This document shows positions 5,050-11,069 of a stretch of DNA of 53,878 nt, in pieces. A program made the position numbers and the translations under genes. The notes below the pieces were generated by a model that saw only the letters and a list, made by a program, of their open reading frames with translations, did not search any database and was not told where the DNA came from. Where the stretch lies: contig REBP01000085.1 of NCBI GenBank assembly GCA_007692665.1, positions 1 through 53,878 of the forward strand. Reading direction: 5' to 3'. The first letter of the stretch is position 1, and each line of letters starts with the position of its first letter. Origin of the DNA: Gemmatimonadales bacterium. GTDB taxonomy: Bacteria > Gemmatimonadota > Gemmatimonadetes > Longimicrobiales > Gaopeijiaceae.

Positions 5050-7170
5050 TCAGCGCTCGTCCAGGAGGCGGCACCCTTCCATCAGGAGCGACTCCAGCGA
5101 GTCATGAATGGTGGCCGGCGGGAAGTCGGACTCGGGGTGCACGGTGAACTCCCCGTCCTCCTCCCAGGCGATGATCCGGTAGATCGCTTCCGGGCCGGTG
5201 CGGGAGCCGGCCACGGCGTGGACCGGCCGACCCCGCTCGAGGTAGAGCACGGCCTCCTCTCCGTCCGTGGGGCGAGCCAGTTCCACCCGGACCGACTTGA
5301 GGCCGTGCCCCAGGGCCTGGGCCAGATCCAGGAAGGAAAAGGCCTCGAAGGTGGCGGAGAAGTCCCCGCCCCGGGCCCGGAACGCCGAACGGACCCGGGA
5401 CCGCGAAGCGATGGCCCGCGAAACCCTTGCCGCCACCAGGTCGAAGTCGTGGGGCGGGCTGAACACGTCGTCGAACCCCACGTCCAGGAGACCCAGGGTG
5501 ACCGCAGGGTCGGCGGAGTCGGTGACCACGTAGAGGAGCAGGGCCGCGTCCAGCTTGGCGACCCGGGCAAAGTGGTCCACGTGCCCTGGCACGGCGGCCT
5601 GGTCGACGAGGATTGCCGCCGGGGGCCGTCGCTCCGCCATGGCCTGGGCGTCCATGAGGTCGCGGGTGACCACCGGCCGAAGCTCGGCGCGGGCCAGCCG
5701 CGAGCCCAGTTCGACCACGCGCTCTCCTCCCACCAGGAGGACCTGGGCCACCTCGCCGACATCGCCCGACGCCCGCCGATCCTCGATGACCCGGAGGAAC
5801 TTCTCCACCAGATCCAGCGAGGCGAGGCGGGTTGCCGCCTGCCTCAGCACCGTCCGCATCTGGAGGGCGGCGTCGCCCTCGGTGGACTCGCCGGCGGGGG
5901 CGAGAATGTGGTGGAACCAGACCAGCGAGAGGATCTGTGCCGCGCGTACCACCTCGGGGTTCACCCGTCCCGGCGGCTCCGGCGTCCGGGCGCCGAGAAA
6001 GAGCGCAAGCGCCGCATCGAGGACTCCCTCCACGGGCCACGGGAAGCGGAGGCGGACCGCCAGCTCGCGTGACGCCGGGAACCCCTCGAAGGGACCCCGG
6101 ACTCCCGACGCCCCCGGCACCGCCCCGGGTGGGCGGGGGGGGACCAGGAGGTGGATCGCCAGGTGGAGCCCGTCGGATACCACGACCGGGAGCCCCTCGA
6201 TGCGGGCAAGCGCCTCGGCATCCCTCGCCAGGAGGCCGTAGGGGGGTGGCGTCTCCCGGTCCCGGGTGCGGGTATCGGCGAGGGCCTCGACCATGGCGCG
6301 AAGCGAGCGGATCAGTTCGCGATACGGGACCGGGTTCGCCAGCAGCGCCTCGCTCACCGATGGGAAGACGCCGACCTGTCGGGGGAGGGCGGGAAGCTTC
6401 CCGCCGCGCGCCCACATCCGGAAGGACTCGTCGCGCTCCGCATCCACGAGGACCGCCTCGAAGTCGCCGCCCCGGAGCGCCGCTGCCACCTCGTCGAACC
6501 CATCGGCCACCACGAGGTCCCACCCCTCCCGGGCAAAGATCGCCGGCAGGAAGCTGCGCCGCTGAGCCCCCGGCGTGACCATGAGGACCCTGCGGCGGGT
6601 GGTTTCCGATTCCTTCAGGCCCCCTTCCGCCTCCCCTCCCTCCGCGTCCCCGCCGGGTGGGGCGAAGAGCTCCGGAAGGTGGACACCGCCCTCGGAGGTG
6701 GCAGTGCGGTCATCTGCAGACCCGAGGAGCGCCGCCCGGACCCTTCGCATCTCATCGTCGGGAACGAGCACGAGCTCCATCTCCGACGCGGCAAAGGCCT
6801 CCCTCAGGGCGTCCAGGGAGTCCGAATCGGCGGGATCGTTCAGTCCGACCCTGAGCCTTCCCGCGTCGGCATCCCATGCCAGGGGGATCATGAGTCCGCC
6901 GTGGCGCCCCGCGGGGGGAATCCGCTCCACCAGGTCCGCGGGCACGTCGGTGGCAGCAAGGTGCTGCCAGGGGAGGCCGAACTGCCGGCTCAGGGCCTCC
7001 ATGAGCTGGCGCCGGCTCAGGTACCCGAGTTCGACCAGGTTCTCTCCCAGCCGCCCCCCGTGGGAGCGCTGGCGCTTGAGGGCGGTCCGGACCTCGGAGT
7101 CGGTGGCGTATCCCAGGTCATGGAGGACCTGGTCGAGGCGGACCGTGGCGGCCCGTTTCCCCCCGTTCAT
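5050..7170 (-). CDS. MshEN/T2SSE-N, double receiver-like, PATAN-domain protein
   Basis: 706 aa from ATG at 7170, which overlaps the pilT stop as ATGA. Residues 11-34 and 40-63 are two 24-residue motifs separated by five residues; the second starts RLGENLVELGYLSRRQ and ends EALSRQ. This 24-5-24 layout is the known c-di-GMP-binding MshEN pattern; in motif 1 the Gly of RLG is Asp. Residues 75-150 continue as a type II secretion ATPase N-terminal domain, but no ATPase follows. Instead there are a receiver-like domain (about 187-275, EAVLVDAERDE), a helical region, a second receiver-like domain (about 455-580, AAILVDQAAVPG) and a C-terminal PATAN/DUF4388 domain (about 595-700). Likely a cytoplasmic adaptor coupling c-di-GMP and phospho-signals to the pilus motor next door. 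The domains are seen; the role is inferred. Confidence 0.8.
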   Translation of the reverse strand: MNGGKRAATVRLDQVLHDLGYATDSEVRTALKRQRSHGGRLGENLVELGYLSRRQLMEALSRQFGLPWQHLAATDVPADLVERIPPAGRHGGLMIPLAWDADAGRLRVGLNDPADSDSLDALREAFAASEMELVLVPDDEMRRVRAALLGSADDRTATSEGGVHLPELFAPPGGDAEGGEAEGGLKESETTRRRVLMVTPGAQRRSFLPAIFAREGWDLVVADGFDEVAAALRGGDFEAVLVDAERDESFRMWARGGKLPALPRQVGVFPSVSEALLANPVPYRELIRSLRAMVEALADTRTRDRETPPPYGLLARDAEALARIEGLPVVVSDGLHLAIHLLVPPRPPGAVPGASGVRGPFEGFPASRELAVRLRFPWPVEGVLDAALALFLGARTPEPPGRVNPEVVRAAQILSLVWFHHILAPAGESTEGDAALQMRTVLRQAATRLASLDLVEKFLRVIEDRRASGDVGEVAQVLLVGGERVVELGSRLARAELRPVVTRDLMDAQAMAERRPPAAILVDQAAVPGHVDHFARVAKLDAALLLYVVTDSADPAVTLGLLDVGFDDVFSPPHDFDLVAARVSRAIASRSRVRSAFRARGGDFSATFEAFSFLDLAQALGHGLKSVRVELARPTDGEEAVLYLERGRPVHAVAGSRTGPEAIYRIIAWEEDGEFTVHPESDFPPATIHDSLESLLMEGCRLLDER

Positions 7171-8216
7171 GCCCCGAATCGACCGGCTCCGCCCCCGGCG
7201 GCGGCAAGGAAGGGCTGGGGCTCGGCGGCGAAGCGCGCGGCCTCGGCCGGCTCGACGATGCCCTGCTCCACCAGCTCCTTCAGGTGCTGGTCCATCAGGT
7301 TCATGCCGTCGCGGCGACCGGTCGTGATGACGTTGTTCACCTGGTGGTTCTTCCCCTCGCGAATGAGGTTCCGCACCGCACCGGTGGCCACCAGGATCTC
7401 GAGGGCCGCGACCCGCCCGGGACCGTCGGCCCGGCGGAGGAGCTGCTGCGAACACACGCCGAGCAGGACCTCCGAGAGCCCGAGTCGCACCGCGGACTGC
7501 TGTTCGGCGGGGAAGGCGTCGGAAATGCGACTGATGGTCTGGGCTGCCGAGCGGGTGTGCAGGGTCCCGAGAACGAGGAGCCCGAGCTCGGCGGCGGTAA
7601 GCGCCAGCGAGATGGTTTCCAGGTCCCGCATCTCCCCCACCAGGATCACGTTCGGGTCCTCGCGCAGGGCGCCCCGGAGGGCGTCGGCGAAGCTCCGGGA
7701 GTGCTCCCCGATCTGGCGCTGGTTGATGAGGCACTGCTTGTTCGTGTGGATGAACTCGAGCGGGTCCTCGAGGGTGATGATGTGGTACTTCATCTGCTCG
7801 TTGAGGTAGTCCACCATGGCGGCCAGCGTCGTGGACTTGCCCGAGTTCGTGGGGCCCGTGACCAGGAAGAGGCCGGAGCGCTGCTGGAGCAGGGTCTTCA
7901 GGATCGGGGGAAACCCGAGGGAATCCAGGCTCGGGACCTCGTGGGGGATGATCCGGATGGCGGCGGCCATCCCCGGGAACTTCTTGTACACGTTGATGCG
8001 GAAGCGGGCCACCCCCTCGAGGGTGTACGCGCAGTCCAGCTCTCCGGCCGATTCGAAAAGCGCCACCTGGGTGTCGCTCAGGAGCTCGTACACGAGCAGG
8101 CGCACCTCGTCGCCGGTGAGCGGCCGATGGCGGGCCTTCTCCAGCACGCCGTTGATGCGGAGCATGGGGACGCACCCCGTGCTCAGATGGAGGTCCGAGG
8201 CCCCCGCCTGCTGCAT
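7167..8216 (-). CDS. pilT: PilT-type twitching motility ATPase
   Basis: 349 aa. GASDLHLS opens the N-terminal domain; Walker A is GPTNSGKST (Asn where most PilT have Gly), the Asp box is IITLEDPLEFIH, Walker B region is ILVGEMRDLETI, and the His box is LGTLHTRSA. PilT hexamers drive type IV pilus retraction at the inner membrane base. The ATG at 8216 leaves the N-terminus a few residues short of typical PilT. In-frame codons upstream read LARVDAFLEI, which looks like the missing helix but offers only a CTG as start, so the true start is uncertain. The stop overlaps the start of the next gene by four bases, and a 77-aa gene lies 99 bases upstream on the same strand. No pilus structural genes are in the window. 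Confidence 0.92.
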   Translation of the reverse strand: MQQAGASDLHLSTGCVPMLRINGVLEKARHRPLTGDEVRLLVYELLSDTQVALFESAGELDCAYTLEGVARFRINVYKKFPGMAAAIRIIPHEVPSLDSLGFPPILKTLLQQRSGLFLVTGPTNSGKSTTLAAMVDYLNEQMKYHIITLEDPLEFIHTNKQCLINQRQIGEHSRSFADALRGALREDPNVILVGEMRDLETISLALTAAELGLLVLGTLHTRSAAQTISRISDAFPAEQQSAVRLGLSEVLLGVCSQQLLRRADGPGRVAALEILVATGAVRNLIREGKNHQVNNVITTGRRDGMNLMDQHLKELVEQGIVEPAEAARFAAEPQPFLAAAGGGAGRFGA

Positions 8217-8315
8217 GATCTCGAGGAATGCGTCGACTCTGGCCAGCGACCGAGTTCCCGGTTGCCCGCGCGGGATGCGTGGCGGGGAGGCCCCCCGGGG
8301 AGGAGAGCCTCGAGG

Positions 8316-8549
8316 CTACTTCTTGCGGCGCGACTTCCTGGCGCGGGAAGCCGCGACCGTTTCGGCGTCGAGGAAGCCCTTGGCCACCAGCAGGTCCTGG
8401 AGGCGGTATCCCCGGTCAGGTACCGGGGTGCGGCTCACCTCCCGCGCCAGTTCGATGCGCTCGGCTTCGTCGATCTGGTCAAGCAATGCGATGGGGGCGC
8501 CGTAGCGAAGCAGGATTCGCTTGGCATCCACCGCGACGGAATCTTCCAC
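8316..8549 (-). CDS. small protein with one MshEN-like half motif
   Basis: 77 aa from GTG at 8549, with GGGAGGG about five bases upstream, so translation is well supported. I recognise no named family. Residues 49-72 (RLQDLLVAKGFL, then ETVAASRARK) fit the spacing of one 24-residue MshEN half motif (RLGxxLxxxGxxxxxxLxxAL), with Gln for Gly. Residues 10-40 are helical (KRILLRYGAPIALLDQID). The tail is a Lys/Arg cluster. It is first in the apparent operon with pilT and the MshEN/PATAN protein, so a role in pilus-motor control is a reasonable guess and no more. Confidence 0.6.
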   Translation of the reverse strand: MEDSVAVDAKRILLRYGAPIALLDQIDEAERIELAREVSRTPVPDRGYRLQDLLVAKGFLDAETVAASRARKSRRKK

Positions 8550-8770: not shown

Positions 8771-9493
8771 ATGACCCCCGACCCCCCGGCCCTCTCCCGA
8801 TCGGTTGAAGACTACCTGAAGGCGATCTACTCGCTGACGGAGCGAGGGGAGTCCGCCTCGACCAGCAACATCGCCCAGGCCCTCGATGTCCAGCCCGCGT
8901 CGGTGAGCGGCATGGTGAAGCGCCTCGCCGAATCCGGCTGGGTGGAGCACCTCCCCTACCGGGGCGTGACCCTCACCCCCGACGGGACGCTCCAGGCCCT
9001 TCGCATCGTGCGCCGCCACCGGGTGCTCGAGACCTACCTGGCCCGACGCCTCGGGTACTCGTGGGACGACGTGCACGCCGAGGCCGAGCGGCTCGAGCAT
9101 GCGGCCTCCGACGACCTCATCGATCGCATGGCCGATGCCCTGGAGCACCCCCAGCACGATCCCCATGGGGCGCCCATTCCCACCCGGAGCGGCGAGATCG
9201 AGGTTCGCCACCAGGGGGTCCTGGCCGATGCGGAGCCCGGCAGCCGGGTCTGGATTCTCTCCGTCCGCGACGATGACCCCGAACGACTCCGGACGCTGGC
9301 GGCCCGGGGGCTTCTCCCCGGCGTGTGCCTCGCCGTCGAGGGCCGCCCCGTGGCAGGGGGACCCCTCTCCGTACGGGTGGGCGGCCCCGACGGCGAGCCC
9401 CAGACCCTGGGGCCCCACCTGGCGAGCCAGATCTGGATCGCCCCGGTCGAGCCGGTCGAGCGGGACGGGGAAGAAGACGAGGTGGACCCGTGA
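8771..9493 (+). CDS. DtxR/MntR-family metal-dependent regulator
   Basis: 240 aa from ATG at 8771; the frame is open further upstream but only this start gives the usual short N-terminus. Residues 8-75 form the winged helix (SVEDYLKAIYSL, then NIAQALDVQPASVSGMVKRL). The metal-binding and dimerisation helices follow (RRHRVLETYL, DDVHAEAERLEHAASDDL), then an SH3/FeoA-like end. Length and the DPHGAPIP segment resemble DtxR/IdeR, but ligand positions look MntR-like: Asp in VEDY, and Glu in AEAERLEH where DtxR has Cys102. The residue matching MntR Glu11 is Lys. Metal preference (Fe or Mn) is therefore open. The stop overlaps the uridine kinase start as GTGA, an unusual partner. Confidence 0.88.
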   Translation: MTPDPPALSRSVEDYLKAIYSLTERGESASTSNIAQALDVQPASVSGMVKRLAESGWVEHLPYRGVTLTPDGTLQALRIVRRHRVLETYLARRLGYSWDDVHAEAERLEHAASDDLIDRMADALEHPQHDPHGAPIPTRSGEIEVRHQGVLADAEPGSRVWILSVRDDDPERLRTLAARGLLPGVCLAVEGRPVAGGPLSVRVGGPDGEPQTLGPHLASQIWIAPVEPVERDGEEDEVDP

Positions 9494-10131
9494 GCGCCGA
9501 CGGGGGCACGCGCCGGCCCGTCATCGTGGGCGTGGCCGGGGGGAGCGGTTCGGGAAAGACCACGGTGGTCCGGGAGATCCTGCACCGCCTGCGGCCGGAC
9601 CGGGTGGGGGTGGTGCACCACGATGCGTACTACCGGGACTTTGCCCACCTCCCCCCCGACACCCGGGCGACCATCAACTTCGATCACCCGGAGTCGCTGG
9701 AGACGGAGCTCCTCGAGTCCCACCTGCAGGCGCTCCTCCGCGGGGAATCCATCGAGGCGCCCGTCTACGATTTCACGACACACACCCGGTCCGCGGAAAC
9801 GATCAGGGTTGGACCCACCGACGTCATCATCGTCGATGGCATCCTCGTCCTGGCCGAGGCGCGGCTCCGGCAGCTCATGGACATCCGGATCTTCGTGGAC
9901 ACCGATGCCGACCTGCGCTTCGTCCGTCGGCTGAGCCGCGACATGGGCGAGCGTGGCCGCACGCTCGACTCGGTGATCCGCCAGTACCTGGAATCGGTCC
10001 GCCCCATGCACCTGGATTTCGTGGAACCCTCGAAGCGGTGGGCCGACGTGATCATCCCGGAAGGGGGAGAAAACCGCGTCGCCATCGACATGGTGGTGAC
10101 GAAGCTCGCCTCGGTCCTTCAGCCCGGCTGA
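9490..10131 (+). CDS. udk: uridine kinase
   Basis: 213 aa from GTG at 9490, overlapping the regulator stop by four bases. Walker A is GGSGSGKTT at about residues 17-25. HHDAYYRD and INFDHPESLETELL follow the uridine kinase pattern, with YDFTTHTR for substrate binding, VIIVDGILVL as Walker B and an RDMGERGRTLDSV lid. The enzyme phosphorylates uridine and cytidine to UMP and CMP in pyrimidine salvage, in the cytoplasm. Length is that of the family. The last 13 bases overlap the end of the convergent lipoprotein gene. Translational coupling with a metal regulator is odd and has no obvious metabolic reason. Confidence 0.92.
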   Translation: MSADGGTRRPVIVGVAGGSGSGKTTVVREILHRLRPDRVGVVHHDAYYRDFAHLPPDTRATINFDHPESLETELLESHLQALLRGESIEAPVYDFTTHTRSAETIRVGPTDVIIVDGILVLAEARLRQLMDIRIFVDTDADLRFVRRLSRDMGERGRTLDSVIRQYLESVRPMHLDFVEPSKRWADVIIPEGGENRVAIDMVVTKLASVLQPG

Positions 10132-11069
10132 GCGCAGGGCGGGACCCCCGGCTGCTCGCCCGACGTGAAGCTGAAGCTCCGGTTCACGATCCCGCCGACG
10201 ACCCCCGTCCCGTCCCCGAAGAGCGAGGGAATCCGCACCGTCCCCGACGGGTTGAAGTTCCCGCCGCGGTTCCAGTTCACGGCGTTTCGACCCTGGGCGC
10301 TCACGACGATGACGCCCTGCACCACCGAGGCCGCCGGGAGCCCCCGCTGCAGCGCCACCAGGACATCTCCGTCGGCCGAGAACCGGTTGAAGATGCCGAA
10401 CTGCGACGGGAACACGATGTCCGTGTCCGCTTCGGAGATGGAGAGCCCCTGGAGCGTGAGCGGATTGGTGGGGACGACGATTCCCTCCGGTTCGAATGCC
10501 GCATCCAGCCCGAAGACCGCCGCCTCCGGCACGTAGGCCCGGGCGCCGGCCGAGGGGGTCCACCGGATCCGCAGAAGTTCGTTGGGGCGGAGTCGACACC
10601 GCGGGACCCCCTGCGCAGGTACCACCAGTTCGAAGTCTCCGGGGAGGGTGACGGTTCCTTCCAGCCTCTTTCCACCCTCGAGTTCGATGGTCACCAGGTA
10701 CCGCCCCCCGGGTCGGAGTTCGAAGACGGCCGCAGCGTCCAGGGCGAGGCACTGCGCATCCAGTTCCAGCGGCACCAGCCCCTCGATGCACACCGGGAGG
10801 GGCACGGGAGAGAAGCGTCCCTCCTGCCCCCCGTCCAGGTCCCGGACCCGCACCTCCGCGTCCAGGAGCGACACCCCGTTCTCGCCGGGTGTCTGGTGGA
10901 GAAGGGCGACGGCGTCGGATTCGCCGTCGTGCACCCGCAGGTAGACCTCCGCCACGATCCGGGACTCCGGCTGTTCCACGGTGATCTGGGCGATCTCGCA
11001 GCCGGAGGCCAGGGCGGTGATCACGGCAAGGCACAGCGCGGGAAGGGCCCTTCGGCTGACGCGGGACAT
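10119..11069 (-). CDS. lipoprotein partner of TonB receptor
   Basis: 316 aa from ATG at 11069, whose ATGA overlaps the receptor stop. The signal peptide ends in a lipobox, ITALASGC. The mature part starts with a beta-rich domain (residues 25-130: VAEVYLRVHDGESDAVALL, then AEVRVRDLDGG) and ends with RSFSFTSGEQPGVPPC. The layout resembles the DUF4249-type lipoproteins encoded after SusC/CirA-like receptors in Bacteroidota, but the match is by architecture only. It probably sits in the outer membrane as the substrate-binding or surface partner of the receptor. Substrate unknown. Confidence 0.75.
   Translation of the reverse strand: MSRVSRRALPALCLAVITALASGCEIAQITVEQPESRIVAEVYLRVHDGESDAVALLHQTPGENGVSLLDAEVRVRDLDGGQEGRFSPVPLPVCIEGLVPLELDAQCLALDAAAVFELRPGGRYLVTIELEGGKRLEGTVTLPGDFELVVPAQGVPRCRLRPNELLRIRWTPSAGARAYVPEAAVFGLDAAFEPEGIVVPTNPLTLQGLSISEADTDIVFPSQFGIFNRFSADGDVLVALQRGLPAASVVQGVIVVSAQGRNAVNWNRGGNFNPSGTVRIPSLFGDGTGVVGGIVNRSFSFTSGEQPGVPPCAQPG

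Follow-up and report, generated by a model that had tools for sequence, protein, structure and literature searches.

A PilT paralogue and its coupled MshEN–PATAN protein form a conserved gene pair related to known regulators of type IV pilus motors

Results

A PilT paralogue is translationally coupled to a five-domain adaptor

We analyzed a 53,878-nucleotide stretch of DNA from a Gemmatimonadales bacterium (contig REBP01000085.1 of assembly GCA_007692665.1), hereafter the window, in which a gene for a paralogue of the pilus ATPase PilT is followed by the gene for a 706-residue protein, the adaptor. The adaptor–PilT pair is a variant of known regulators of pilus motors, and the adaptor is not a demonstrated receptor for cyclic diguanylate (c-di-GMP). 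From the sequences we favor, at evenly balanced confidence, a two-gene module in which a cytoplasmic adaptor would tune a second PilT by docking through its PATAN domain, its MshEN domain sensing a cyclic dinucleotide.

The adaptor gene (positions 5050..7170, minus strand) lies directly behind pilT (7167..8246, minus strand). Its ATG and the pilT stop codon share the sequence ATGA, a 4-nt overlap at 7167-7170 on the minus strand that bears out the translational coupling proposed in an initial annotation of the window. The same annotation had noted that the protein has no ATPase of its own, and Pfam indeed gave no match within the 706 residues to the T2SSE ATPase domain of PilB and GspE, the usual carriers of MshEN. 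Based on domain models and structure prediction, the domain order of the adaptor is MshEN, pseudo-receiver, degenerate HD-GYP-like domain, pseudo-receiver and PATAN (DUF4388). The full-length AlphaFold2 model, built with 27 homologues, has a mean predicted local distance difference test score (pLDDT) of 81.6 and a low predicted template modelling score (pTM) of 0.42, so that domain placement in it is unreliable; VIA-align matches for the full model were dominated by the second receiver and carry little information on the other domains.

The pair recurs across phyla

At 25 distinct loci, which come from at least three phyla, the adaptor gene was found directly 3′ of a PilT of one and the same clade. 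The gap between the two genes measures −8 to +29 bp where the adaptor homologue is at least 31% identical. The outer gene context of the pair varies, and several contexts were seen. Across 378 scanned genomes the adaptor adjoins this PilT in 15/15 genomes that carry it. Among 298 Gemmatimonadota genomes, the clade PilT (called at a minimum of 75% identity, the next-best match having 55%) and a full-length adaptor co-occur in the identical six genomes and are always adjacent. In an 80-genome Krumholzibacteriota set, nine genomes have the clade PilT (scores of at least 459 bits, the next being 409) and the adaptor is present in 9/9. The 25 distinct loci together with this co-occurrence rule out a chance adjacency of adaptor and pilT. 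A stand-alone MshEN/PATAN adaptor beside the retraction motor, as first proposed from the window, is thus conserved across phyla. Recurrence in Gemmatimonadota had been suggested as a check for three genes, including one for a 77-residue mini-protein upstream of pilT; the pilT–adaptor pair does recur there, and no pilT was seen in 20 sampled mini-protein neighborhoods of relatives.

In a genome-wide scan, adaptor homologues span Gemmatimonadota, Krumholzibacteriota, Deltaproteobacteria/Myxococcota, Zixibacteria, Calditrichota and other bacteria. The Zixibacteria-type homologues (loci L140-L161) lie in a housekeeping neighborhood with glyS-, recO-, selD- and recA-like genes.

Other MshEN proteins were seen next to ordinary PilTs. 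In Myxococcota, divergent adaptors (~24-30% identity) adjoin canonical PilTs with the P-loop GPTGSGK, several of them directly downstream (L195, L206, L208, L209, L213-L215 and L218). The ordinary PilT of Gemmatimonadota is encoded behind another MshEN protein, which has 417 residues and no P-loop. The source genome of the window encodes this ATPase-less protein on contig C172 (L089:7946-9199), 63 bp upstream of its ordinary PilT (9263-10345); 18 related sequences were found at Gemmatimonadota loci, with no P-loop in those inspected, and the C-terminal half of the protein has no Pfam match. Because both the divergent Myxococcota adaptors and the 417-residue protein stand beside ordinary PilTs, MshEN proteins may have become coupled to PilT on more than one occasion. 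The same genome also encodes, on contig C6 (L170:355-1983, minus strand), a 542-residue protein in which an N-terminal PATAN domain is accompanied by two MshEN-like RLGxxL motifs and by TPR repeats; it combines PATAN and MshEN-type elements in an order that differs from that of the adaptor.

The adaptor has a complete MshEN domain at one end and a PATAN domain at the other

Two 24-residue MshEN motifs separated by a 5-residue linker occupy adaptor residues 11-63 (6982..7140, minus strand), with RLDQVLHDLGYATDSEVRTALKRQ as motif I and RLGENLVELGYLSRRQLMEALSRQ as motif II. They were identified by column counts in the 27 homologues and by the NCBIfam model c-di-GMP_motif (NF053729), which matched residues 12-63 (E = 1.5e-13, 50.3 bits, cut-off 38). 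The C-terminal subdomain of MshEN follows at residues 64-151 (6718..6981, minus strand) and was matched by Pfam MshEN (PF05157; E = 2.7e-8, 34.1 bits, cut-off 23.1). The closest relatives by sequence in the PDB were the GSPII domains of Thermus PilF (E = 4.8e-22), followed by MshE (E = 1.4e-12), and a Foldseek search with the adaptor model retrieved the MshE–c-di-GMP complex 5htl_B (template modelling score by target 0.74). The motif pair that the initial annotation had placed at residues 11-63 therefore stands far above chance, with two amendments: the domain is complete to residue 151 instead of being confined to 11-63, and motif I reads RLD, not RLG. The structural match of the 706-residue protein to MshEN that it had called for was obtained with both Foldseek and the AlphaFold2 model.

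At the other end, residues 604-706 (5053..5361, minus strand) form a PATAN domain that ends in the conserved sequence LMEGCRLLDE. Pfam DUF4388 (PF14332) matched residues 607-706 (E = 1.2e-14, 54.8 bits, cut-off 25) and was also matched in 27/27 homologues, in agreement with the C-terminal PATAN seen earlier in the letters. PilB1 and PilC are the binding partners of PATAN regulators in Synechocystis (PMC12288463, PMC7690835), and interaction of PATAN with pilus motors is known only for the cyanobacterial members (PMC12288463).

Sensing by MshEN weighed against a ligand-free scaffold

According to the favored reading, gene 1 would provide a second, distinct PilT (GPTNSGK) alongside the ordinary one, and gene 2, by coupled translation, a dedicated soluble adaptor. 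The PATAN end may dock on the pilus motor or base, by analogy with the cyanobacterial regulators on PilB1 and PilC. The MshEN end would sense a cyclic dinucleotide, most likely c-di-GMP at altered affinity, and the receiver/HD-GYP middle may serve as a signal-passing scaffold that is neither a phospho-switch nor a phosphodiesterase. Upon a change in nucleotide, the adaptor could then recruit, activate or restrain its PilT at the pilus base. In Vibrio cholerae, c-di-GMP influences retraction of the MSHA pilus, and an effect independent of MshE has been left open (PMC7096442). As to the ligand, the source genome encodes diguanylate cyclase domains, with 7 GGDEF matches, and on that basis c-di-GMP is plausibly made in this bacterium.

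Several observations weigh against the favored reading. The known docking partners of PATAN are PilB1 and PilC, not PilT. The Zixibacteria-type adaptor homologues have no pilT in their flanks, and genome G433, the tenth adaptor-bearing genome of the Krumholzibacteriota set, has a close adaptor homologue (locus L125, identical to L184), the sole exception to the pairing at 31% identity or above, with neither an adjacent pilT nor a clade PilT above threshold; the genes called beside it are nadA- and mutY-like. Asp13 (7132..7134, minus strand) occupies the site of the essential Gly11 of MshE: position 3 of motif I is Asp in 28/28 members of the adaptor family, and the 31 other MshEN domains from Gemmatimonadota loci have Gly in 30 cases, Ser in one and Asp in none. 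The PilF GSPII-A domain, the best PDB sequence match of the adaptor, does not bind c-di-GMP.

From the MshEN receptor class the adaptor thus has both motifs and the C-terminal subdomain, and the Gly at position 3 in motif II only (Gly42, kept in 27/27 homologues). Mutation of Gly11 abolished c-di-GMP binding by V. cholerae MshE, and the variants G11L and G40I gained no thermal stability from the ligand (PMC5013675). Given these effects and the invariant Asp, binding of c-di-GMP by the adaptor MshEN appears uncertain from its sequence. The MshE authors considered that flawless conservation of the motifs is possibly unnecessary for binding (PMC5013675), and the remaining motif residues of the adaptor are nearly all kept among the homologues (Arg11 27/27, Gln34 27/27, Leu60 27/27, Gln63 26/27); position 3 of motif I is the sole exception to an almost complete retention of the Arg, the Leu cluster and the Gln in both motifs.

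These data bear on the strongest rival, in which MshEN no longer binds a nucleotide and the adaptor is a ligand-free docking scaffold. The invariant Asp13 at an essential Gly site and the non-binding PilF domain as nearest solved relative both favor it, as do the receivers and HD-GYP-like domain, which are likewise degenerate and would suit a scaffold-like protein. Selection for Arg1, the Leu cluster and Gln24 of both motifs, however, would have no obvious reason without a ligand, and we consider the ligand-free scaffold possible yet clearly less probable than sensing.

The linked PilT is an additional motor with an altered P-loop

The window PilT matched the PilT/PilU model TIGR01420 over its full length (E = 1.5e-132, 442 bits, cut-off 319.1). 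Its Walker A and B regions, Asp box and AIRNLIRE-like region align with those of other PilTs, with the P-loop changed from Gly to Asn to give GPTNSGKS. In a tree of 68 PilT sequences all 25 adaptor-linked PilTs form one clade (Shimodaira–Hasegawa-like approximate likelihood ratio test, 97), and the P-loop reads GP[TSA]NSGK[ST] in 25/25 of them, compared with GPTGSGK[ST] in 38/38 readable others. Further PilTs are present in each of five adaptor-bearing genomes searched whole, and the clade PilT is therefore an extra motor. The first ATG of the window gene, at 8216 (reading frame 7167-8216), lies ten codons short of the orthologue starts; the orthologue N-termini, (M)ARxDAFLxI, align upstream of it, where the window equivalent opens with CTG at 8244-8246. 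The start codon is thus probably this CTG, at 8246.

An ATPase that is always an extra paralogue, encoded outside pil operons and altered in its P-loop could have a job other than retraction, which the adaptor would then regulate. We regard this as unlikely, since the match to PilT/PilU is full-length and far above the cut-off, the motor motifs align, and pilus regulation is the typical setting of both PATAN and MshEN. Judged by sequence, pilus retraction is probably the job of the GPTNSGK PilT.

We give a slightly lower, small probability to a further possibility, that the Gly-to-Asp change has re-tuned the adaptor MshEN to another nucleotide, for example 3′,3′-cyclic GMP-AMP or cyclic diadenylate, which would supply retraction with its own second-messenger input. 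If true, the input to retraction throughout the PilT clade would be distinct from that of the extension motor, c-di-GMP.

The middle of the adaptor consists of degenerate receiver and HD-GYP-like domains

Two receiver-like domains had been described in the adaptor, and both folds are present in the AlphaFold2 model. The first (residues 192-282; 6325..6597, minus strand) is the more weakly supported: an alignment with the two-receiver protein PleD spans residues 192-602 with a high root mean square deviation (rmsd), and Pfam Response_reg was matched in 15/27 homologues. For the second (residues 473-598; 5377..5754, minus strand), VIA-align matched residues 473-591 to the receiver of KdpE (Z = 17.9, 119 residues, rmsd 1.7). 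The conserved residues of receivers are absent from both: the phospho-acceptor site is Asp in only 3/27 homologues (first receiver) and 5/27 (second), and no conserved Lys after the last receiver strand was visible across the 27 homologues. Control of the adaptor by phosphorylation, as proposed in the initial annotation, is therefore unlikely.

Between the receivers lies an all-helical domain that the initial annotation had not described (residues 283-470; 5761..6324, minus strand). Residues 280-472 predicted alone gave a pLDDT of 88.2 and a pTM of 0.87, and HD-GYP phosphodiesterases took ranks 1-4 of the structural matches, with Z scores of 11.6-12.4 that helical bundles can attain through chance arrangement. 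Pfam HD and TIGR HDIG matched independently in 5/27 homologues, at residues 302-348 in the one detailed. The catalytic residues of HD-GYP were not found in the window adaptor, where the HD site reads His340-Leu341 and a GYP motif is absent; the HD residues are kept only in homologues of the Zixibacteria/Fibrobacterota–Chlorobiota–Bacteroidota type, with no recognizable HHE or GYP there.

As far as residues can tell, the adaptor is ruled out as a phospho-regulated receiver or an active phosphodiesterase. A reading of the adaptor as an ordinary response regulator that acts through an HD-GYP phosphodiesterase and adjoins pilT by chance is accordingly very improbable: the receiver and HD-GYP folds are there, but the phosphorylation and catalytic residues are not kept in the window protein, and a chance neighbor would not be linked so regularly to one PilT clade.

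The upstream mini-protein belongs to another neighborhood

The gene for the 77-residue mini-protein (8316..8549, minus strand) had been read as the first gene of the pilT operon, with residues 49-72 as a single MshEN half. Orthologues were found in 42/59 relatives; the protein is unannotated, GTG serves as start codon in many orthologues, and a Lys/Arg-rich tail is seen in some. The first ~62 residues (DSVAVDAKRILLRYGAPIA...) make up the conserved core of the protein. Most of 30 orthologues terminate shortly past the GYL motif, so that the second part of the proposed half-motif is missing. In the window protein Gln51 stands for Gly and Arg69 for Leu, and position 3 is never Gly in the orthologues. 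A profile comparison with MshEN (hhalign) gave 29% probability over 24 columns.

No pilT was found beside the mini-protein in 20 sampled neighborhoods of relatives. A DtxR-type regulator is adjacent or within two genes in 14/18 neighborhoods with called genes, and an NhaC-like antiporter lies on the opposite side in several. The window keeps this order, with a DtxR/MntR-type metal regulator (8771..9493, plus strand; Pfam Fe_dep_repr_C, E = 8e-30, and synteny), the mini-protein and the antiporter, and has pilT and the adaptor gene inserted between mini-protein and antiporter. By its gene neighborhoods, the mini-protein is part of an unrelated, older DtxR-type neighborhood and stands outside the module.

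Synteny and the orthologue alignment thus rule out an operon of three genes whose half-MshEN mini-protein would act with the adaptor under c-di-GMP and phosphorylation control. This is the least probable reading of all: in its favor are the common strand, the 69-99 bp between mini-protein and pilT and the weak profile similarity, and against it stand the neighborhoods without pilT, the missing motif half and the receivers without Asp.

Discussion

What is known of the control of type IV pili by second messengers concerns mainly extension, through MshE/PilB and FimX-PilZ; a c-di-GMP effect on PilT that does not depend on the extension motor has been posed as an open question (PMC7096442). The module is a compact, genetically linked test object for it, with one PilT clade, one adaptor and one candidate ligand domain that bears a clear natural change at an essential MshEN position. 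Retraction in the phyla that bear the module probably has its own signal-controlled regulator, and a likely role is thereby offered for unannotated DUF4388 proteins of several phyla.

The architecture had struck the initial annotation as unfamiliar. In the non-subscription literature searched, we found no description of the five-domain protein or its linkage to pilT, and no paper on MshEN together with DUF4388 or on DUF4388 and type IV pili. By itself, an MshEN domain that is not part of an ATPase is no novelty, since fusions of MshEN to REC and HD-GYP domains were already listed in 2016 (Wang et al., PMC5013675).

Among known systems, V. cholerae MshE (PMC5013675) shares with the adaptor the complete two-subdomain MshEN, the 24-residue motifs with their 5-residue linker and the Foldseek match to 5htl. 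MshE differs in having its ATPase in the same chain and the Gly in motif I, where the adaptor has no ATPase and an Asp; its MshEN sits on an extension ATPase, whereas that of the adaptor is beside a retraction ATPase. The MshEN-REC and MshEN-HD-GYP fusions (Wang et al., 2016), such as Bdellovibrio Bd2402, likewise bring the same domain types together in one signaling protein, from which the adaptor is set apart by its five-domain order with PATAN and its strict linkage to pilT.

The Synechocystis proteins PixE, PixG and LsiR (PMC7690835, PMC12288463) resemble the adaptor in uniting PATAN and a receiver fold in one soluble pilus regulator. Phosphorylation or light controls them, and they bind PilB1/PilC, whereas the adaptor has degenerate receivers and is linked to the motor PilT; its PATAN is C-terminal, with an MshEN domain added. 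FimX-PilZ on PilB (PMC5595344, PMC8389850) is also a c-di-GMP-linked adaptor acting in trans on a pilus motor, and the enzyme domains of FimX are degenerate as well, but its domains are unrelated and it acts on extension and not on a dedicated PilT. The clade PilT, finally, is full-length with all motor motifs, like PilT/PilU (TIGR01420), and is distinguished from them by its own clade, the P-loop GP[TSA]NSGK[ST] and the dedicated adaptor encoded downstream of it.

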